A stretch of 37,202 nucleotides of DNA from a virus: positions 1 to 37,202 of IMG/VR virus record IMGVR_UViG_3300011258_001282, one strand, 5' to 3'. The number at the start of each line of letters is the position of its first letter. Position 1 is the first letter of the stretch. The notes beneath the pieces are model-generated. The model worked only from the letters and a program-made list of their open reading frames with translations. It was not told where the DNA came from and searched no databases. Below, piece after piece: positions 2,643 to 37,202 of the stretch. Made by a program: the position numbers and the translations under genes.

Positions 2643-2915
2643 TTAGGGGTGGGGCAGACGTTGGCCAGCAAGGGCGCGATCCATTAGTCTGACAACATGA
2701 CGCTCTGTGCACTTCTCAACTTCTTCGCATGGATACGCGACGAGATCATCTGCGCCGAGATATTCAGAAAGCTCGGCGGACGAAAACACGTGAGCCTCGC
2801 TTAGGTCGCATGTGTACCCATGGTGGTCTTTACGCCACCAAACCATGGAGTTGCCGACATAGCCCCGCGTCTTGTCGTGGATGAAATATTTCGTATCTTC
2901 CTCACTCACTGACAT
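2643..2915 (-). CDS. Conserved hypothetical protein
   Basis: 90 residues. The start at 2915 was chosen because a GGAG lies six bases upstream; an in-frame ATG at 2921 abuts that GGAG, and longer forms would overlap the HNH gene heavily. The N-terminal half reads KYFIHDKTRGYVGNSMVWWR, then GYTCDLSEAHVF. The order HD-x-x-RGY, NSM-x-WWR, GYTCDL recurs in small phage and bacterial proteins of unknown role. A Cys/His cluster (YPCEEVEKCTERH) near the end might bind a metal. It overlaps the HNH stop by 14 nt, so translation is probably coupled. Confidence 0.72.
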   Translation of the reverse strand: MSVSEEDTKYFIHDKTRGYVGNSMVWWRKDHHGYTCDLSEAHVFSSAELSEYLGADDLVAYPCEEVEKCTERHVVRLMDRALAGQRLPHP

Positions 2916-3324
2916 TTTCATCTCCTGTATCTGGCTCATTAATGTCCTTGACGTTCGGTGTCCATTTGGACTTTCCCTCAATGCCAGTGTTAAATCCTCT
3001 CCCTTTAGGCCAAGGATCTACGTGAGCCTGGATATTGCCCTTGGGCTTTAAGTCCCCCGTGTGCTTACGGTAGACACGCCTGCATTTGGCAGCGTTCGTT
3101 TTGTCGCTTTTGCCGCCGTGTGAGACCTCGTTGGTTTTCGTTGCATGGCAGGATGGGCATAATGCTTGGCCGTTCTTCGCAGACCTGTCTTTGCTGATGG
3201 CCCACGGGATGGTATGATCCCACTCCACACCTTCACTCAAAGGGGTTGTGCATCCATCTGCTTGGCAGATAGCCGTGCGGAGAAGGATCTCCACTTGTGA
3301 GGCGAGGGTGAAGTTGCGGGTCAA
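2902..3324 (-). CDS. HNH endonuclease
   Basis: 140 residues. The HNH core is clear: a CxxxxC-type pair (Cys20, Cys25), the EWDHTIPW strand with the HNH His, NGQALCPSCH with the Asn and second zinc pair, then HATKT. The C-terminal 70 residues are basic and Lys/Gly-rich, probably for DNA contact. The start is TTG at 3324, overlapping the upstream stop and preceded by GGGAGG five bases away. It sits in the recombination cluster and far from the terminase, so a recombination or DNA-processing role, or a free-standing homing-type nuclease, is more likely than a packaging role. Confidence 0.88.
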   Translation of the reverse strand: MTRNFTLASQVEILLRTAICQADGCTTPLSEGVEWDHTIPWAISKDRSAKNGQALCPSCHATKTNEVSHGGKSDKTNAAKCRRVYRKHTGDLKPKGNIQAHVDPWPKGRGFNTGIEGKSKWTPNVKDINEPDTGDENVSE

Positions 3325-3575
3325 TCGTGCCTCCCGTGGTCGCCTGTTACGCTCTCCATGATTTCCATGAGCGGCGTCATTTCTGGCGTTCTGTATGGAT
3401 CAAGGTATTTCTTGCGGCAACGAAGCCACACCTTGTAAGGATGGTTCTTGCGCAGACCAAACGGGTAGGCCGCGTCGATTGCCTTGGTGCGCTTAGCAAG
3501 GCTAATGTCAGCGGGCAATATGTCGTGAACTGCATTGATCACGTCCCAGGATCTTTCTGCCCATGCTCCCATCAT
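3321..3575 (-). CDS. Conserved hypothetical protein of recombination cluster
   Basis: 84 residues, very basic and aromatic. The segment AIDAAYPFGLRKNHPYKVWLRCRKKYL is the distinctive part and resembles phage proteins with an AYPFG-x-R-x-x-x-PYK-x-W motif, often next to DUF1367 or NinB-type genes. Function unknown; charge suggests nucleic-acid binding. The ATG overlaps the previous stop (GGATGATG, two adjacent ATGs possible). The end overlaps the TTG start of the HNH gene. Confidence 0.7.
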   Translation of the reverse strand: MMGAWAERSWDVINAVHDILPADISLAKRTKAIDAAYPFGLRKNHPYKVWLRCRKKYLDPYRTPEMTPLMEIMESVTGDHGRHD

Positions 3576-4033
3576 CCTGTCCTCTCATGTTGGTCTTCTG
3601 GGTGGGGGAGGTCCAAAACCTCTTCAAGCTCTCGCAACAAATCTTCACGTGCGACACCTGGAAGAACTTTTGTAACGATCAATTCAATGGCGCGTTTATA
3701 GAAAGCGTCGAAATCTGTTTGGTCCATCTTTGCAAAGCTGATTGAACCCGGCTGCATCATAATCCGTCCATCTGGCAATTGAATCATGGTGCCGTAGCCA
3801 AGTGCAATTTTAAGCGCGTCGTTCAAGCTTTCCTTGGTCGGGTAGGTCGATTGGTTCGGAAATATCTTGTCGATAATCACCCAATACTTTTGATGGTGCT
3901 TCAAGTTCCGAGGGCACGTCGCCACTATTTTGTAGGTGGTGCCCTCGGGCAGTTCACGCAGCGCCTCCTCACTCATCCCATTAGCTGGGACAAGCGAAGA
4001 GAGCGACCGACGCATGAAAAGCTTCGTTGCCAT
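3572..4033 (-). CDS. DUF1367-like recombination-associated protein
   Basis: 153 residues. The pattern CPRNLKHHQKYWVIIDKIF, then a long helix with DALKIALGYG, then SISFAKMDQTDFDAFYKRAIELIV and VLPGV matches the DUF1367 family found in nin-region-like clusters of temperate phages. Members are often next to recombination genes and are thought to act in recombination, but the biochemistry is not established. The C-terminus is acidic and helical. The start shares one base with the upstream stop (TGATG) and the end overlaps the next gene by 4 nt. Confidence 0.82.
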   Translation of the reverse strand: MATKLFMRRSLSSLVPANGMSEEALRELPEGTTYKIVATCPRNLKHHQKYWVIIDKIFPNQSTYPTKESLNDALKIALGYGTMIQLPDGRIMMQPGSISFAKMDQTDFDAFYKRAIELIVTKVLPGVAREDLLRELEEVLDLPHPEDQHERTG

Positions 4034-4508: not shown

Positions 4509-5255
4509 TTATGCGACTGATTTATTCTCCCTTATGACAAAGCCGGGAATAGGCCCCTTGCCTGCCCGTACATCCTGTTGAGCGAAGGCCAGGATAACTT
4601 CCTCCAAATCTTCGCGGCGTGTTTTCCAGTAATGCGTCATAGCCTGAGAGGCATCTGTCATTTCTGGGTAGCAGCTTGTCTTGATCCCGATAGCTCGCGA
4701 ACCACCCTTGACATTGGGCCGGTCCTTCGTGGTGGCCTTGTGGCTTGCGGCTGCTGCGTCCGCGTGTTGAATTGCGGCTTCTGCTTCTTCTGCGTCCTCA
4801 AGGCTCTCGGTGCGCTTGGCGAGGGCTTCCTGCTTTTTACGCTCCGCCTGTTCCGCTTGCTCACGGGCAATACGTTCTCGCTCGGCCTGTTCCGCTTCCA
4901 ACTTGAGCATCCAAGGCTTGAGCGCCTCTTTGCACAACTCAATTGCTAGCGGGGCCTTGCCAGTAAGGGATTTGGTCTTGCCGATGAGAGGGTTATACTT
5001 ATCCTGCACAGCCTTCTTGCCAGCATCGAAGGGTTTGTTTTCCTCCTTGCGGGCATTGTCGGCTTCGGTTGTTGCTTTGCGCAGTCCGTCAATGAGGGCA
5101 GACACGGCTTTTGCCTGCCCCTCTGTTGCGATAGGCTCACCATCCGCAAAGTTCTTCGCCTCTTCGTAGAGGTCGTTGATTGTCTTCTCCACATCTTCAA
5201 ATGGAGTAGGTGGGTTGTTGTGCCCGGCTTCTGCTGGTGTTTCTGAAAGGCTCAT
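4509..5255 (-). CDS. Coiled-coil protein of recombination cluster
   Basis: 248 residues from an ATG at 5255 with GGAGG five bases upstream. A longer frame to 5579 exists but overlaps the gene before it and lacks a ribosome site. The region 95-190 is a long charged coiled coil dominated by Glu, Ala, Gln and Lys (AEQAERERIAREQAEQAERK). The C-terminal 60 residues form a separate domain with a Trp, a helix (DLEEVILAFAQQDVRAG) and IPGFVIRENK. That ending (VRAG..IPGV-x-I) occurs in proteins next to phage recombinases. It is not itself a recombinase by motif. A scaffold or accessory factor for the neighbouring ssDNA-binding protein is a guess. Confidence 0.75.
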   Translation of the reverse strand: MSLSETPAEAGHNNPPTPFEDVEKTINDLYEEAKNFADGEPIATEGQAKAVSALIDGLRKATTEADNARKEENKPFDAGKKAVQDKYNPLIGKTKSLTGKAPLAIELCKEALKPWMLKLEAEQAERERIAREQAEQAERKKQEALAKRTESLEDAEEAEAAIQHADAAAASHKATTKDRPNVKGGSRAIGIKTSCYPEMTDASQAMTHYWKTRREDLEEVILAFAQQDVRAGKGPIPGFVIRENKSVA

Positions 5256-5325
5256 ACCTTCCTCCATTTGTTCAAATGCCAGATAAAGAACCGGGCAAGG
5301 GGGCAGTTGATAATTAAGCGGCGGG

Positions 5326-5793
5326 TCATTCCGCACGCTCCCTTGGGTCAAGACGTGCTTCTGTTGGATAGACACGATTGCCGCGCACTGGGTGTGTCCA
5401 TCCGTTACAATGGGCAAGCTCGTGCTCAAGCAAGCGTTGATATGGACCCCAGCGAAAGTCAGTAGACATTTCACGAATGAATATGTGACAGCTTCCAAAA
5501 GCCATTTGCTGGCAGGCGTCGCGCGTCTCAACGCGGATGACGTGGGCGCAAACCGTCGCCACCTGACTGGCGGGCACAACTGTTACAACCACAGGCATAG
5601 TCGGTGGGCGTTTGTATTCTTCGGGCGGATAGTCATAGGCAAAGGCCAACGGAATGCTGGCAGCCAGGGCGATAACACATGCGGCAATCCAGAGCGCACA
5701 ACCATTGACGATCTTGCGCCAGTGGCGCTGCATCCAGCTAGCTCGCCCGCGAGCGCGGAGCATGGGGCCGTAGTCTCTGGGGAGGGGGGTCAT
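5326..5793 (-). CDS. Membrane-anchored zinc-metallopeptidase-like protein
   Basis: 155 residues from the ATG at 5793, which overlaps the upstream stop (ATGA). A basic N-terminus (RHWRK) precedes one transmembrane segment at about 31-52, so the C-terminal domain should lie outside the inner membrane. Residues 124-134 read HELAHCNGWTH, an exact HEXXHXXGXXH zinc signature with three histidine ligands and Glu125 as catalytic base, as in metzincins. Five cysteines in the exported domain (positions 82, 94, 102 and 129 among them) could form disulfides. The domain is shorter than typical metzincins, so it is either minimal or a related zincin fold. Its substrate is unknown. Position in the early operon argues against a lysis role. 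Confidence 0.72.
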   Translation of the reverse strand: MTPLPRDYGPMLRARGRASWMQRHWRKIVNGCALWIAACVIALAASIPLAFAYDYPPEEYKRPPTMPVVVTVVPASQVATVCAHVIRVETRDACQQMAFGSCHIFIREMSTDFRWGPYQRLLEHELAHCNGWTHPVRGNRVYPTEARLDPRERAE

Positions 5794-6747: not shown

Positions 6748-7010
6748 CCTTCACCCCCAGTAGCCTTAGAGATGGCTAGGCACTGGAGGCAAACGACATC
6801 TTGTTCGTCGCCTTCGTAAGCTTGGTTGAACGGCACATCGAGGGTGCCGCAGCGCGTCCACAGGCAAAAGTTCTCGTTGTGCTGGGGCGTTAGGTTTGCG
6901 CCCTCGCAAAGATGCCCGTTCCACACGATCTGCTTTCCATTAGACAGCGAACACACATCGCCACTTGCTCGATGGCCCACAACATCTAATAAGGCTTGTG
7001 TCTCGCTCAT
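6744..7010 (-). CDS. Cys-rich hypothetical protein
   Basis: 88 residues. Cys/His residues occur in a spaced series (DVCSLSN, HLCEG, NFCLWTRCG, VVCLQCLA), ending in a CxxC pair, which suggests a small zinc-binding fold. Function unknown. Start and stop both overlap neighbours by 4 nt (ATGA and GTGA). Confidence 0.68.
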   Translation of the reverse strand: MSETQALLDVVGHRASGDVCSLSNGKQIVWNGHLCEGANLTPQHNENFCLWTRCGTLDVPFNQAYEGDEQDVVCLQCLAISKATGGEG

Positions 7011-7534
7011 CGGGCGTCCCCCTCTGGGGTGGGGGAGAGGGCCTTGCGGCTTTCAAATACGGTTTCGATGTACTGGATTTTCGCGAGGCACTCTGCAACA
7101 TCGCCGTTGCTGTTGTAGGTTTCACCAAAGTGGGTTCGCGCTTCGTCAATTGTCGCCCACGTCCTGCAACCAGCGGTGATTTTGAGTTCAAAGTTCTTTG
7201 GATCGTAGGTGGCGCGAAAAATGTATCCACGAGCATCCACGCCAGCGTCGATGATGGGGGCTCCCCACAGGTTGGCTCCCCACAGGTTGGCTCCCCGCAG
7301 GTCGGCTCCCCGCAGGTTGGCTCCCCGCAGTTTGGCTTCCCGCAGGTCGGCTCCCCGCAGGTCGGCTCCCCGCAGGTCGGCTCCCCGCAGGTCGGCTTCC
7401 TCTTTGATTCCCCACTTGACAGCAGCACCAATTTGTAGCGAGCGATCCTTGGTCTCAAAGGATGCATCAATCTCGGCAGTGAATTTCACGGAGCCTGAGA
7501 AACGGTTTTTGATTTCAACTTTCATAGCGTTCAT
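7007..7534 (-). CDS. Pentapeptide-repeat protein
   Basis: 175 residues from the ATG at 7534, which overlaps the upstream TGA; ATG at 7525 is an alternative. Residues about 47-95 are consecutive pentapeptide units of the A-D/N-L-R/W-G type, which stack into a right-handed quadrilateral beta helix. The flanks are unrelated: an N-terminal strand domain (VEIKNRFSGSVKFTAEID) and a C-terminal domain with GYIFRATYDPKNFELKITAGCRTW. Some pentapeptide proteins mimic DNA and protect gyrase, but ten units are short for a Qnr-like protein. The repeat is short beside the flanks, so it may be only a structural linker. Confidence 0.82.
   Translation of the reverse strand: MNAMKVEIKNRFSGSVKFTAEIDASFETKDRSLQIGAAVKWGIKEEADLRGADLRGADLRGADLREAKLRGANLRGADLRGANLWGANLWGAPIIDAGVDARGYIFRATYDPKNFELKITAGCRTWATIDEARTHFGETYNSNGDVAECLAKIQYIETVFESRKALSPTPEGDAR
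7259..7393. repeat. Tandem 15-bp repeat inside pentapeptide gene
   Basis: Nine consecutive 15-bp units of the form GGCTCCCCGCAGGTC, with a few substitutions (A/G at base 9, C/T at base 15, one GTTT variant, one TTCC variant) and a partial tenth unit. In the minus strand each unit encodes one pentapeptide. Nucleotide identity between units is much higher than the protein repeat requires, which suggests recent expansion or homogenisation by slippage. Confidence 0.95.
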
Positions 7535-7854
7535 TCCGCTGCTTGCGTGGGGGTGGAAAGGCCGCGCAGGCGAACACTGGGGTGAGTGAACCCGTAGCCC
7601 ATCTCGCAAAACAACTTGTCGGCGGCGGCAATGTTCTCGCGGATTGTGTCAACAACCCCCTCGGCCAAATCTTCCGCGTTTTCACAAACGTCGTGTTGGC
7701 CCATGATTGCCTTAATGCGAGCAAGCACATCCTCGGCATCGCTTAGAACACTCTCCATAGCGGCCTTGGCTTGGCACATCGCCTGAACGTCCAGGGGCAG
7801 TATTTCTGCCTTGGTCTCTGCGCGGTCTGCGTATTCTTGGAAAAGGTTGGTCAT
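7531..7854 (-). CDS. First gene of leftward operon, hypothetical helical protein
   Basis: 107 residues beginning MTNLFQEYADRAETKAEIL. A long helix (PLDVQAMCQAKAAMESVLSD through ARIKAIM) is followed by a second helix around IRENIAAADKLFCEMG. GGAG lies six bases before the ATG. It is the promoter-proximal gene, so it should be the earliest leftward product. No family recognised. By position only, lambda N occupies the equivalent place, but N-like Arg-rich RNA-binding sequence is absent here. Confidence 0.72.
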   Translation of the reverse strand: MTNLFQEYADRAETKAEILPLDVQAMCQAKAAMESVLSDAEDVLARIKAIMGQHDVCENAEDLAEGVVDTIRENIAAADKLFCEMGYGFTHPSVRLRGLSTPTQAAE

Positions 7855-7880: not shown

Positions 7881-7909
7881 AGAGTAGGAAATATCCTTCC
7901 TTTAGTCAA
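7881..7909 (-). promoter_or_regulatory. pL: Leftward early promoter (pL-like)
   Basis: On the minus strand TTGACT (7909-7904) and TACTCT (7886-7881) are separated by 17 bp. Transcription would start near 7874, about 20 nt before the first leftward gene. One operator lies inside the spacer and a second overlaps the upstream edge of the -35 box. Confidence 0.68.
7885..7898. promoter_or_regulatory. Operator OL1
   Basis: TAGGAAATATCCTT, core GGA-AATA-TCC, within the spacer of the leftward promoter. It matches the operator at 8594-8607 in 13 of 14 bases. Bound repressor would block RNA polymerase directly. Confidence 0.75.
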
Positions 7910-7922
7910 AGGAAAAATCCTT
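7909..7922. promoter_or_regulatory. Operator OL2
   Basis: AAGGAAAAATCCTT, with perfect AAGGA/TCCTT arms around AAAA. It is 24 bp from OL1 (start to start) and abuts the -35 box of the leftward promoter. The spacing would put two bound dimers close together. Confidence 0.75.
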
Positions 7923-8177
7923 CGAATCAAAAATAATTTGTGATCTCAGGAAGCGGCCCAACATAAAGCAGACAATCTTCTATATTACAATGCGGGGTTT
8001 ATAGAGGGCTGCACAATTAGCTTGGTTATCCAGCGACAATAGACTTAGTGTCTAAGTGGTGGTCAAGACGCGGACGGGGGAAGTGGAGAATGCGAATGCG
8101 CAGCTTACGAACCCTGGTCGCTGAAATTATTGGCGACATGGAATTGGACAAAACCGCGTTAGAAAAAGTGTTGGGAG
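7923..8177. other. Non-coding gap between leftward promoter and repressor stop, with inverted repeat
   Basis: About 255 bp of AT-richer DNA with no convincing gene. A plus-strand frame from GTG at 8048 runs into the repressor gene and looks like a shadow at its distal end. The striking element is a perfect inverted repeat at 8043-8057, ACTTAG-TGT-CTAAGT, which also contains a nested AGAC/GTCT dyad. There is no T-tract, so it looks like a protein site or RNA hairpin, not a terminator. TTATCCAG at 8026-8033 is a near match to a DnaA box. Confidence 0.55.
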
Positions 8178-8546
8178 CTATCGACCCCGAACATCAGCGA
8201 TTAGATCCCTCATTTTCTGGACCTTTTTTACCTTTTCCGAAGGGGAAAGGTCGCGCTCTGAGTGAGCAAGGGCGTACTCAATCACCATTAGGGCCGCTGA
8301 ATAGTCATCTTCGGGAAGAATAAGTTCTTCCTCAAGGGCGGCGGTATTATCGCCAAGCTCCGACTGAGGCACCTTCAATATCCCCGCTAGTTTCTTTTCA
8401 ACCGATGCTGGCAGCTCGCGTGGTGAACCGCGTTCCAGATATTGTTGGAGGTAGGAGCTGTTGCGCCCAAGTTGCCTTGATGCGCCGGACAGAGAAAGCC
8501 CCTTGTCCCTTAAAAGTTTACGCAATTTGTCTCGACTCTTTTCCAT
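8178..8546 (-). CDS. Phage repressor, HTH only (CI-like)
   Basis: 122 residues. An N-terminal XRE-type helix-turn-helix spans about 5-62: LRKLLRDKGLSLSGASRQLG is the scaffold and first helices, and NSSYLQQYLERGSPRELP is the recognition helix and turn. Residues 63-122 are an acidic linker and a long charged helix (SPSEKVKKVQKMRDLIADV), perhaps for dimerisation. There is no S24/LexA protease domain, so RecA-driven self-cleavage is not expected. It is transcribed leftward between two operator pairs and divergently from the Cro-like gene. No ribosome site precedes the ATG; a leaderless maintenance transcript is possible. Confidence 0.82.
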   Translation of the reverse strand: MEKSRDKLRKLLRDKGLSLSGASRQLGRNSSYLQQYLERGSPRELPASVEKKLAGILKVPQSELGDNTAALEEELILPEDDYSAALMVIEYALAHSERDLSPSEKVKKVQKMRDLIADVRGR

Positions 8547-8570
8547 GACGCAAGAATAAATTTGTTGATA

Positions 8571-8584
8571 GAGGAAATCTCCGC
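8571..8584. promoter_or_regulatory. Operator OR2 (weaker match)
   Basis: GAGGAAATCTCCGC, core GGA-AATC-TCC. It shares the GGA-N4-TCC core with the other operators but has weaker outer bases. It lies 23 bp from OR1 and just upstream of the proposed -35 of the rightward promoter, mirroring OL2. Confidence 0.6.
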
Positions 8585-8613
8585 TTGTGTGCGAAGGAAA
8601 TATCCTTTATGGA
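8585..8613 (+). promoter_or_regulatory. pR: Rightward early promoter (pR-like)
   Basis: TTGTGT (8585-8590), 17-bp spacer, TATGGA (8608-8613). Neither box is ideal, but the geometry is the same as at the leftward promoter: one operator in the spacer and one touching the -35. Predicted start is near 8620, at the ATG of the Cro-like gene, so the message would be nearly leaderless. Confidence 0.5.
8594..8607. promoter_or_regulatory. Operator OR1
   Basis: AAGGAAATATCCTT, with perfect five-base arms AAGGA/TCCTT around AATA. It lies between the proposed -35 and -10 of the rightward promoter and is nearly identical to OL1. Confidence 0.75.
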
Positions 8614-8619
8614 TGGGGA

Positions 8620-8814
8620 ATGACCGAACAAGAACTACTCAAACAGATCAAAAAACACCTCAAAGCGACCGGATTGTCGCGCTCTGCGTTTGGACGTGGG
8701 GCTGTTGGTGACTCCAGATTAATTACTGACATTGAGAACGGGCGTTCTCCTTCGATGCGGACGGTAAAGCGAATTGAAGGCTTTATCAGAAAATCAGCGG
8801 TGGTTGCCCAATGA
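8620..8814 (+). CDS. Cro-like HTH regulator
   Basis: 64 residues from ATG at 8620 (an in-frame upstream extension would run through the operator). A single compact HTH: LLKQIKKHLKATGLSRSAFGRGA is the first helices, DSRLITDIENGRSPSMRTVKRIEGFI the recognition helix and following helix. The S-x-F-G...D-x-R/N-L-x-x-D-I-x-x-GR pattern is a frequent small regulator next to phage repressors in alphaproteobacteria. First gene rightward, divergent from the repressor and beside its operators, so Cro is the natural analogue. Confidence 0.82.
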   Translation: MTEQELLKQIKKHLKATGLSRSAFGRGAVGDSRLITDIENGRSPSMRTVKRIEGFIRKSAVVAQ

Positions 8815-11205: not shown

Positions 11206-11537
11206 CCCAACTCAACATCTTCGATCACTATCCCCACAAGCCTGGATCAAAACGCTCTCAGGCGTCCAGACAAGCCGCTAGGAGAGTCACATCCAGTGCC
11301 AAAGCAATTCGGGTCAAGGTTCTTGAATGGCTCTCTACGCACCCCTCAGGGGGCACAGCGGAGTCAATCGCAATTGATCTGTTTGAGGGTGATGTCAATT
11401 CAATGGCGTTTGCCACCTTCCGCAACTCCGTTCGCTCTCGGCTGTCTGAGCTTTGTGCCTCTCATGAGGCGATGCGTTCCAAGGAACTAGCGGCGGGTGC
11501 CACGGCCCACACTTATCACAAGGTTGGTGTGCAATGA
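11202..11537 (+). CDS. Winged-helix-like replication-module protein
   Basis: 111 residues, overlapping neighbours at both ends by 4 nt (ATGA). A basic N-terminus (HKPGSKRSQASRQAARRV) precedes a helix-turn-helix-like domain: AIRVKVLEWLSTHPSGGTAESIAIDL, then TFRNSVRSRLSEL as the likely recognition helix and a beta-wing-like AHTYHKV. Similar small proteins occur between DnaA-like and DUF1376 genes in phage replication modules. DNA binding inferred. Confidence 0.72.
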   Translation: MTQLNIFDHYPHKPGSKRSQASRQAARRVTSSAKAIRVKVLEWLSTHPSGGTAESIAIDLFEGDVNSMAFATFRNSVRSRLSELCASHEAMRSKELAAGATAHTYHKVGVQ

Positions 11538-12379
11538 GCGGTTTCCCGTGGGTGAAATTCTATCCTTCGGACTGGCTCGCTGGCACGCGCGGCATGAGTG
11601 CTGCTGAGACGGGCATTTATATCACCTTGATAGCAACAATGTACGAGCGACAAGAGCCCATTAAAGAGGATGTGGGACGCCTTGCGCGAGCTTGTGGTTC
11701 CTCCAATTCGGCATTCAAAAAGGCGCTCGATGTTCTTGTTGAAGACGGAAAGATCGAACGTACTGACGGCCTACTATGGAATAATCGAGTGGGTAGAGAG
11801 TGCGAAAAGCGTTCAGAAAAGTCAGAGGTAGCGAGCCAAAGTGCAAAACGCAGATGGAGCACCTCAGACGAGAAAGACCAACAAAAACAACAGCCCGAAA
11901 ATGCAAACGCAGAGAAAACGCAATGCGAACGCAATGCTAACCAGAAGCCAGATACCAGAAGCCAGATAGATAAGAAAGTTCTTCGTAAGTCTAAGCCGAC
12001 TTACACCGAAGATTATGATCTGTTTTGGAGGGCTTGGCAGGGGTCGCCAGCGAAGTGGCCAACACACGTCAAAGGCGAAGCGTATTCCCATTGGAAAGCC
12101 CTTTCTTCTGAGGATCAGGAAATGGCGGTGGCGTCAATCAAGCCATACCAGGACGCCTGCAAGAAGGCGGACCACGACCCAAAACACGCGGTTCGATATC
12201 TGCGGGATCGGGCGTTTGAAGGTTTTGAAGCTGCTGCGCTTGTGACCATTCCAACGATTTCGCGTGGTGATGATGGCTACGATAATTTCGTGAGATGGAA
12301 GCAAGCGCGCGGGCACAAGATTTTCGAAACGATGCCCATCCACCCTGACTACACACCCCCAATGGAGAAAACACCATGA
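11534..12379 (+). CDS. DUF1376 replication protein
   Basis: 281 residues. Residues 1-90 are a DUF1376 domain: FPWVKFYPSDWLAGTRGMSAAETGIYITLIATMYE, then LARACGS and a DGLLWNNRV strand, a fold related to DnaD/primase-type winged helices. A charged, Gln-rich linker follows (about 95-150), then a helical C-terminal domain (YDLFWRAWQGSPAKWPTHVKGEAYSHWKAL). Phage proteins of this kind act in replication initiation, often with a helicase loader. No phage helicase is visible, so host DnaB is presumably recruited. Coupled to neighbours by 4-nt overlaps. Confidence 0.85.
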   Translation: MSGFPWVKFYPSDWLAGTRGMSAAETGIYITLIATMYERQEPIKEDVGRLARACGSSNSAFKKALDVLVEDGKIERTDGLLWNNRVGRECEKRSEKSEVASQSAKRRWSTSDEKDQQKQQPENANAEKTQCERNANQKPDTRSQIDKKVLRKSKPTYTEDYDLFWRAWQGSPAKWPTHVKGEAYSHWKALSSEDQEMAVASIKPYQDACKKADHDPKHAVRYLRDRAFEGFEAAALVTIPTISRGDDGYDNFVRWKQARGHKIFETMPIHPDYTPPMEKTP

Positions 12380-19731: not shown

Positions 19732-20055
19732 ATGGCAGGCAACGCAAACAGTGGCCGCAAGGCGGAAAAACCCTTCAAAGACGCGCTTCGGATGGAGTTG
19801 AAGGACGCTGGCGATGATCACAAAAGGCTTCGTCGAATTGCAAGTGCGCTGATCAGCAAAGCTGAGGACGGTGACATGCAGGCTATCAAGGAATTGATTG
19901 ATCGGGTTGATGGAAAAGCGACAGCGGAAGTGAATGTCACAGGAAATCACACGGTTACTCACGACACGGCAAGCGTATCCCAAACTACTGAATGGCTTAG
20001 CGGCTTGCTCGGATCAACAGAAGATCAGCTACCTAAGAAGCCTTTGCCAAACTGA
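19732..20055 (+). CDS. terS: Terminase small subunit
   Basis: 107 residues. AGNANSGRKAEKPFKDALRMEL is the GN-x-x-SGRK-type start of small terminases, followed by helices with RRIASALISKAEDGDMQAIKELIDRVDGK. The rest is a linker. It would bind the packaging site and assist the large subunit. The 3' end overlaps the large subunit frame by 122 nt. Confidence 0.78.
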   Translation: MAGNANSGRKAEKPFKDALRMELKDAGDDHKRLRRIASALISKAEDGDMQAIKELIDRVDGKATAEVNVTGNHTVTHDTASVSQTTEWLSGLLGSTEDQLPKKPLPN

Positions 20056-21466
20056 TCTTTATTTCCTGCTTCGGTATGCGATGGGCCGGGCGGATATGGA
20101 TCATCCTTGGCTCTTTGAGAGGTGCCGGGAGGTACAGGCTGACCCAGATGGGTATTTGGATCTGTGGTCGCGGGAGCACTACAAGAGCACGATCATTACG
20201 TTTGGTCTGACAATTCAGGACATCTTGAATAATCCAAGTGTGACGATAGGGATATTTAGTCACACGAGACCGATAGCGAAAGGTTTTCTCAGGCAGATCC
20301 AGCGGGAGTTGGCCGGGAATGAGCAGCTTAAGGCGTGGTTCCCAGATATACTATGGGACAACCCGAAAGCACAGGCCCCTAAGTGGTCAGAAGATGATGG
20401 GTTGATTGTCAAGCGCAATAGCAACCCGAAAGAGGCGACAATAGAGGCACACGGTCTTGTCGATGGCCAGCCTACATCTAAGCACTTTGACAAGCTGGTT
20501 TATGATGATGTTGTGACTGACAAGTCGGTAACGACACCTGAAATGATAGCCAAGACAACGGACGCGCTGGCGCTTAGTTACAATCTCGGGGCGCGGGGTG
20601 GGTCTAGGCGATTCATCGGCACCAGATACCACGGGAACGATACCTACAAGAGCGTATTGCAGCGCAAGACTGCCAAGCAGCGCGTTTACCCGGCGACAGT
20701 AGACGGCTCTGTCGATGGAGAGCCGGTTTTGTTGGGCGCGGAAGAGTTGGCGCAGAAACGCCGTGATATGGGGCCTTACATTTTCTCATGCCAGATGTTG
20801 CAAAACCCTGTCGCCGATGAAGCCCAAGGCTTCCGTAAGGAGTGGCTTGAGTATCATGAGGGTGGGATAAGCCATGCCGCCATGAACAAGTACATTCTGG
20901 TGGATCCTGCGTCAGAGAAGAAGAAGACGAGTGATTACACGTCCATTTTTGTGGTCGGACTGGGCAGCGATAAGAATTATTACGTGCTTGATATGGTCAG
21001 GGACCGTTTGAATTTAGCAGAGCGCGCTGACGCAGTGTTCGAGTTGCACCGCAACTATCAACCCAAAAAGGTTGGGTACGAAAAGTACGGAATGCAGGCC
21101 GACATTGAGCACATCAAATACCGCCAAGCTGAAGACAATTACAGGTTCGAGATCACCCCGTTGGGGGGCCAGATGAAAAAGAATGACCGGATTAAGCGTC
21201 TGGTGCCGGTGTTTGAACAGCATCGCGTTTACCTGCCGCCCACCTGCAACAAAACGTCATATGAGGGCAAGGTGATTGATTTGGTCCACGCCTTCACTGA
21301 AGAGGAATACAAAGCGTTCCCTGTGCCGTTGCATGACGACATGCTGGATGCGCTTTCACGTATTGAGGACCCTGATATGGAACTGATCTGGCCTAAAGCG
21401 GTAAAGCGGGTTGATAGGCATCGCCGTGCGCGGAGGGCTGGTTCCACCAGTGCGTGGTCAGCCTGA
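19934..21466 (+). CDS. terL: Terminase large subunit
   Basis: 510 residues from ATG at 19934; no later ATG precedes the conserved CQTDLYFLLRY start. The ATPase site is LWSREHYKSTIITFG (about 77-91), a Walker A variant with Glu-His-Tyr where glycines are usual, and Walker B is KLVYDDV (187-193). The nuclease domain starts at KYILVDPASEKKKTSDYT (Asp324, Asp334) and ends with LHDDMLDALSRI. This REHYKST type is the one I recall from BPP-1-like podoviruses. It pumps DNA into the prohead and cuts it. Confidence 0.92.
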   Translation: MSQEITRLLTTRQAYPKLLNGLAACSDQQKISYLRSLCQTDLYFLLRYAMGRADMDHPWLFERCREVQADPDGYLDLWSREHYKSTIITFGLTIQDILNNPSVTIGIFSHTRPIAKGFLRQIQRELAGNEQLKAWFPDILWDNPKAQAPKWSEDDGLIVKRNSNPKEATIEAHGLVDGQPTSKHFDKLVYDDVVTDKSVTTPEMIAKTTDALALSYNLGARGGSRRFIGTRYHGNDTYKSVLQRKTAKQRVYPATVDGSVDGEPVLLGAEELAQKRRDMGPYIFSCQMLQNPVADEAQGFRKEWLEYHEGGISHAAMNKYILVDPASEKKKTSDYTSIFVVGLGSDKNYYVLDMVRDRLNLAERADAVFELHRNYQPKKVGYEKYGMQADIEHIKYRQAEDNYRFEITPLGGQMKKNDRIKRLVPVFEQHRVYLPPTCNKTSYEGKVIDLVHAFTEEEYKAFPVPLHDDMLDALSRIEDPDMELIWPKAVKRVDRHRRARRAGSTSAWSA

Positions 21467-36956: not shown

Positions 36957-37202
36957 AGAAACAAGCGTTTTATGGAGAGATCCCGTCCATATCGGGTTGT
37001 TGGTGTGTTTTTGGGGCATAGGGAGGGCCACCCAATAGGTGAGGGCGGCGTCTGGAATACCTCAATGGAATCAAAGGGCCCGCTTGCCCTCACCAACCCA
37101 CCTAAGCCATTGAAAAACCTCGATTATCCTACTCCCCAAGGGATTACCAGTATCCCTTTTGCATCACATAACCCCTGCACGTACTTCCCCTCTTTTTTAG
37201 GG
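36957..37202. repeat. attR: Right terminal direct repeat, probable attR
   Basis: Matches 1-246 with an offset of 36956. The first 162 bp are identical, the remaining 84 bp diverged. In this copy AAGGGAT/ATCCCTT form a perfect 7-bp stem ending in TTTT, while the left copy has lost the pairing. On the minus strand a frame is open from the right edge to a stop at 37124 and begins PKKEGK, like the integrase tail PKKRGK. This suggests host-side DNA carrying a related integrase end. Confidence 0.85.

Follow-up and report, generated by a model that had tools for sequence, protein, structure and literature searches.

Paired AGGA-N4-TCCT palindromes flank a predicted repressor gene in a probable lambda-like immunity region of a virus record

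Introduction

Could one small repressor hold both early promoters of a temperate phage silent through two pairs of palindromes placed at the two ends of its own gene? The question is raised by a 37.2-kb virus record (IMG/VR IMGVR_UViG_3300011258_001282, positions 1 to 37,202; 37,202 nucleotides), referred to here as the window, for which an original prediction proposed four sites with a GGA-N4-TCC core, two at each of two divergent promoters, as the operators of a single repressor. We conclude, with a probability of about 0.86, that this is a temperate-phage immunity region built like OL/OR of lambda, in which the predicted repressor controls a leftward promoter, PL, and a rightward promoter, PR.

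Gene organization

As read from the sequence, the gene order of the window is that of the lambda plan. The minus strand carries, leftward, a tyrosine integrase (225–1319; PF00589, phrog_1), an HNH protein (2902–3324), a NinB/Orf-like recombination mediator (3572–4033) and an exonuclease (4509–5579). The first gene of the leftward operon (7531–7854, minus strand) is an open reading frame for 107 residues of unassigned function, for which family searches gave no match. The gene for the 122-residue repressor (8178–8546, minus strand) lies between the two pairs of sites. Divergent from it, the first gene of the rightward operon encodes a Cro-like helix–turn–helix (HTH) protein of 64 residues (8620–8814, plus strand), assigned by homology and position, with a weak match to HTH_3 (E = 0.0014). 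It is followed by a primosomal/replication protein (11534–12379, plus strand; phrog_9327, E = 5e-44; DUF1376) and, also rightward, by the terminase (19934–21466) and then the head genes.

Three further features of the window were noted. The ends of the record (1–246 and 36957–37202) form a 246-bp direct repeat of 94% identity, with the first 162 bp exact, which adjoins the integrase gene and could represent attL/attR or an artefact of assembly at the record ends. No Rfam or tRNA match was obtained anywhere in the window, the repeat included. A 15-bp tandem repeat (7229–7430) codes for a pentapeptide-repeat protein of the leftward operon (7007–7525, minus strand). Opposite the 3′ end of the repressor gene lies an antisense open frame (8048–8323, plus strand; 91 residues from a GTG codon), which may be a chance occurrence; a family search with its 77-residue portion from 8090 gave no match.

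Predicted promoters and operator sites

PL (7881–7909, minus strand) was read by eye as a −35 element TTGACT (7909–7904), a 17-bp spacer and a −10 element TACTCT (7886–7881), and PR (8585–8613, plus strand) was likewise read as TTGTGT (8585–8590), a 17-bp spacer and TATGGA (8608–8613). A generic sigma-70 scan of the window detected neither promoter, as the hexamers are poor by the E. coli consensus; support for them comes from alignment with related loci (numbered with the prefix L), PL aligning with the left promoters of L131, L132, L114, L116 and L117 and PR with the PR of L118, L114, L116, L117 and L131. A promoter for the repressor gene, PRM, would lie at 8553–8581 on the minus strand, a placement made from sequence only, with a −10 element TATTCT (8558–8553) and no recognisable −35 element in the corresponding region (8581–8576); its start would be at or near the repressor ATG at 8546. 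In our reading of the alignment, the ATG of the Cro-like gene at 8620 follows the −10 element of PR by 6 nt (6–9 nt in the compared phages), a distance so short that transcription from PR is predicted to start at or beside this ATG and the Cro-like mRNA looks leaderless.

All four predicted sites are present. In the left operator, the spacer site TAGGAAATATCCTT (7885–7898) lies between the elements of PL and overlaps the −10 element by 2 bp, and the distal site AAGGAAAAATCCTT (7909–7922) touches the upstream edge of the −35 element with an overlap of 1 bp. In the right operator, the spacer site AAGGAAATATCCTT (8594–8607) fills the spacer of PR up to the −10 element, and the weak distal site GAGGAAATCTCCGC (8571–8584) abuts the −35 element of PR and covers the −35 region of the putative PRM. 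The spacings of 24 bp (left pair) and 23 bp (right pair) were given correctly in the original prediction, which also held the geometry to be equal at both ends; the mirror is close but inexact owing to the small overlaps of the left sites with their promoter elements.

GGA-N4-TCC occurs 14 times in the 37.2 kb against 10.2 expected, which is near chance frequency; thus, the core alone is not special and the evidence lies in the pairing. The window contains two pairs of GGA-N4-TCC sites 20–26 bp apart, compared with a mean of 0.02 in 500 dinucleotide shuffles of the window, none of which contained two pairs (0/500). If up to one mismatch in the arms is allowed, the longer pattern AAGGA-N4-TCCTT is found in the window only at 7885, 7909, 8594 and 22366. 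With a weight matrix derived from the relatives only (window left out) and all window positions scored, three of the four sites rank first (7885, 19.2 bits), second (8594, 17.3 bits) and third (7909, 16.8 bits), and the next match in the window scores 11.5 bits. They therefore have no equals elsewhere in the window, whereas the site at 8571, with 7.1 bits, is only rank 16. No third right site scoring above 3 bits is present in the window.

The site at 8571 thus rests on position rather than sequence, and two-site control could be real with only the three strong sites acting, 8571 being a chance or decayed palindrome and the right side having one operator. Degenerate distal sites are also present in some relatives, as this explanation would allow. 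However, the spacing between 8571 and 8594 is exactly 23 bp, and the former adjoins the −35 element, as do the distal sites of L118, L114, L116 and L131, and we consider it unlikely that only three sites act. Two operators on each side remain the preferred reading.

Conservation of the predicted operators in related loci

A search of IMG/VR with DNA alone (AGGA-N4-TCC-N11–16-AAGGA-N4-TCCTT, no protein input) matched 24 contigs. In one of these, L102, the repressor (39% identity, E = 2e-9) and the Cro-like protein (34% identity) both have homologues, which are divergently oriented with the two sites between them. In the other 23 contigs, the stretch examined encodes no homologue of either protein; these are probably chance matches.

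HTH searches yielded 40 repressor loci including the window; L118 and L102 are one contig, which was thus also fetched by its operators, and the remaining loci were fetched by protein only. AGGA-N4-TCCT, with at least seven of eight positions matching, is present upstream of the repressor in 26 of the 40 loci (17 perfect; 2.25 in shuffles), counts that are not fully independent owing to the shared ancestry of the relatives (L114, L116 and L117, for example, are mutually close, with 63–78% identity). When gap lengths of 0 to 10 were compared, only a gap of 4 stood out strongly, the next being a gap of 9 with nine loci. Enrichment is also observed in the 320 bp past the repressor stop codon, with 22 sites in 12.0 kb versus 34 in 154 kb of other sequence (p ∼ 6e-12, window excluded).

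Phages with repressors ∼38–50% identical to the window HTH carry AGGA-N4-TCCT at either end of the repressor gene, several of them with one site against the −35 element and one in the spacer, which supports the proposal that one repressor would serve both promoters. At the PR of L118, L114, L116, L117 and L131, the second site is directly followed by TTGACT, TTGACA, TTGACC or TTGCAA, then by a 17-bp spacer in which the first site lies, and then by the −10 element; L112 has a similar layout with 20-bp spacing. At PL, one site abuts the −35 element and one lies in the spacer in L131 and L132, as in the window, and the distal site is degenerate in L114, L116 and L117. L118, L113, L114, L116 and L131 have a third site on the right, closer to the repressor (weak in L114 and L116), so the contrast originally drawn between two sites per side and the three of lambda holds for the window but not for these five relatives. 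The repressor and Cro-like starts are separated by 73 bp in the window versus 96–117 bp in the compared phage relatives.

The paired operator pattern is absent from 50 terminase-related virus records, and the switch is thus not common to relatives by packaging genes. Cro-like homologues are divergent to the repressor in L002–L005, L102 and most of the profile-found loci. A further Cro-like relative (37%) is gp45 of Octadecabacter Antarctic DB virus 2 (L006), in which the 12 kb examined revealed no homologue of the repressor.

L002, L003, L004 and L005 are genome contigs of Altererythrobacter, Altericroceibacterium and Croceibacterium that encode an S24 repressor/Cro-like pair with one palindrome and a conserved TAGACAAGTAGGA in a syntenic chromosomal setting. 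Judged by eye from their sequences, the neighboring genes resemble cysS, a metallo-hydrolase, plsX and fabH, and this setting suggests a domesticated phage switch.

The repressor and its recognition helix

Residues 1–65 of the repressor constitute an HTH domain homologous to those of S24 (LexA-like) repressors, with 45–48% identity over 60–78 residues. No Pfam match to Peptidase_S24 was found in the 122-residue protein, and no convincing S24 remnant is present in the window, where only short chance-level matches were obtained. As it lacks the defining domain, the protein is not one of the self-cleaving S24 repressors, and RecA-stimulated self-cleavage is unlikely as the route of induction; induction more likely involves an antirepressor or a different protease. 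Scanning a subset of the window ORFs revealed neither an antirepressor nor an ImmA/IrrE-type peptidase. At 122 residues the repressor is unusually short for a lambda-type switch, and whole-protein searches gave no match in viral contigs, phage records or the 50 terminase-related virus records. The AlphaFold2 model (mean pLDDT of 69, pTM of 0.44) displays the HTH, a disordered linker (residues 67–80) and two low-confidence C-terminal helices. Its fold matches are weak and include the small HTH proteins SinR, DdrO and the phi106 repressor, none with an E value below 0.001.

The presence of the operator follows the recognition helix. A site of at least 12 bits is found in 24 of the 27 loci in which the recognition helix contains Q-Q and in three of the 13 with other helices (Fisher p = 7e-5, from hand counts and without correction for phylogeny). 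Some homologous loci are without an AGGA-N4-TCCT site, including L138, L142 and L145, in which the Cro-like gene is kept. These observations bear on whether the Cro-like protein (8620–8814) could be the main reader of the sites, with the 122-residue protein acting elsewhere or only as a partner. Its gene is likewise conserved beside the sites, but site presence tracks the helix of the repressor and Cro-like genes persist in the three site-less loci, making this explanation improbable. The Cro-like protein probably tips the switch to lysis by binding to some or all of the operator sites, and we retain the repressor as their principal reader. A mere coincidence of a common sequence core is scarcely credible, since, although that core is near chance frequency across the window, the shuffles never yielded two pairs and 26 of the 40 homologous loci share the motif, a gap of 4 alone being far above shuffles.

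L145 has a changed recognition helix (RSPAYLSQ) and no AGGA-N4-TCCT upstream of the repressor, where it carries GTGAGAAAACTCCC and GTGGGAAAACTCTC, which may represent an operator that has shifted. The same type of HTH is also joined to other C-termini, namely a second HTH_3 in L128 and L132 and a short unmatched tail in L140, and AGGA-N4-TCCT-like sites are still found near the gene in all three.

A tentative joint reading is that the Q-Q/AGGA-N4-TCCT code and the site geometry might have persisted in diverged phages and in host chromosomes, with the C-terminus freely exchanged among an S24 protease, a second HTH and a short helical tail; the window might then have lost both its third operator on the right and the sensing of SOS, and be induced by another signal. 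No description of this operator family was found among the titles and abstracts of the open-access literature searched, which is weak evidence of absence. An operator code defined by sequence for these phage repressors would allow operator sites and immunity groups to be predicted from sequence, and the window, without an S24 domain and a third right site, offers a natural comparison with its relatives for the contributions of the self-cleavage domain and OR3 to a lambda-type switch.

Proposed mechanism

From the positions, conservation and geometry of the sites, their co-occurrence with the HTH family and the flanking gene contents, we infer the following lambda-type scheme. A dimer of the 122-residue repressor would bind each AGGA-N4-TCCT palindrome. 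The strong spacer site at each promoter would exclude RNA polymerase directly, and the second site, ∼two helical turns upstream and touching the −35 element, would add occupancy, a separation that suits cooperative dimers. The single repressor would thereby silence both PL, from which the recombination genes and integrase would be transcribed leftward, and PR, which would drive the Cro-like gene and replication rightward. The −35 region of the putative PRM lies under the weak 8571 site, which is centred near −32; this suggests negative autoregulation, in which occupation of 8571 at high repressor levels would probably limit repressor synthesis as OR3 does in lambda.

Comparison with known systems

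Lambda has three operators per side, and OR3 limits repressor synthesis. The window resembles OL/OR of lambda (CI/Cro) in that the repressor gene is flanked by two early promoters pointing outward, both of which have tandem palindromic operators ∼23–24 bp apart; further shared features are a divergent Cro-like gene, recombination and integrase genes leftward and replication rightward. All lambda-type layout features that were looked for were found in the window, except three operators per side. It further differs from lambda in its unrelated operator sequence, in a repressor without an S24 domain and in the predicted leaderless Cro-like mRNA.

The S24 repressors of alphaproteobacterial phages and Sphingomonadales (L102, L112–L117 and L131; L002–L005) share with the window a homologous HTH, the type of recognition helix, the AGGA-N4-TCCT operator and a divergent Cro-like gene, but they contain a Peptidase_S24 domain (matches confirmed), and a third site is present on the right in five of the phage loci.

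Phage 933W has three OR sites. Its OL3 site is missing, which is a precedent for two left operators (PMC5977221). The window is similar to 933W in this respect, but 933W is a lambdoid phage with an operator sequence unrelated to that of the window. DdrO, SinR and the phi106 repressor are alike in having an HTH followed by a short helical C-terminus and no S24 domain, a likeness of build only, given that no match is below E = 0.001 and the C-terminus of the window repressor is a low-confidence model. Small non-S24 repressors nevertheless exist, and each single departure of the window from the lambda plan thus has a precedent, in 933W without OL3 or in these small repressors.
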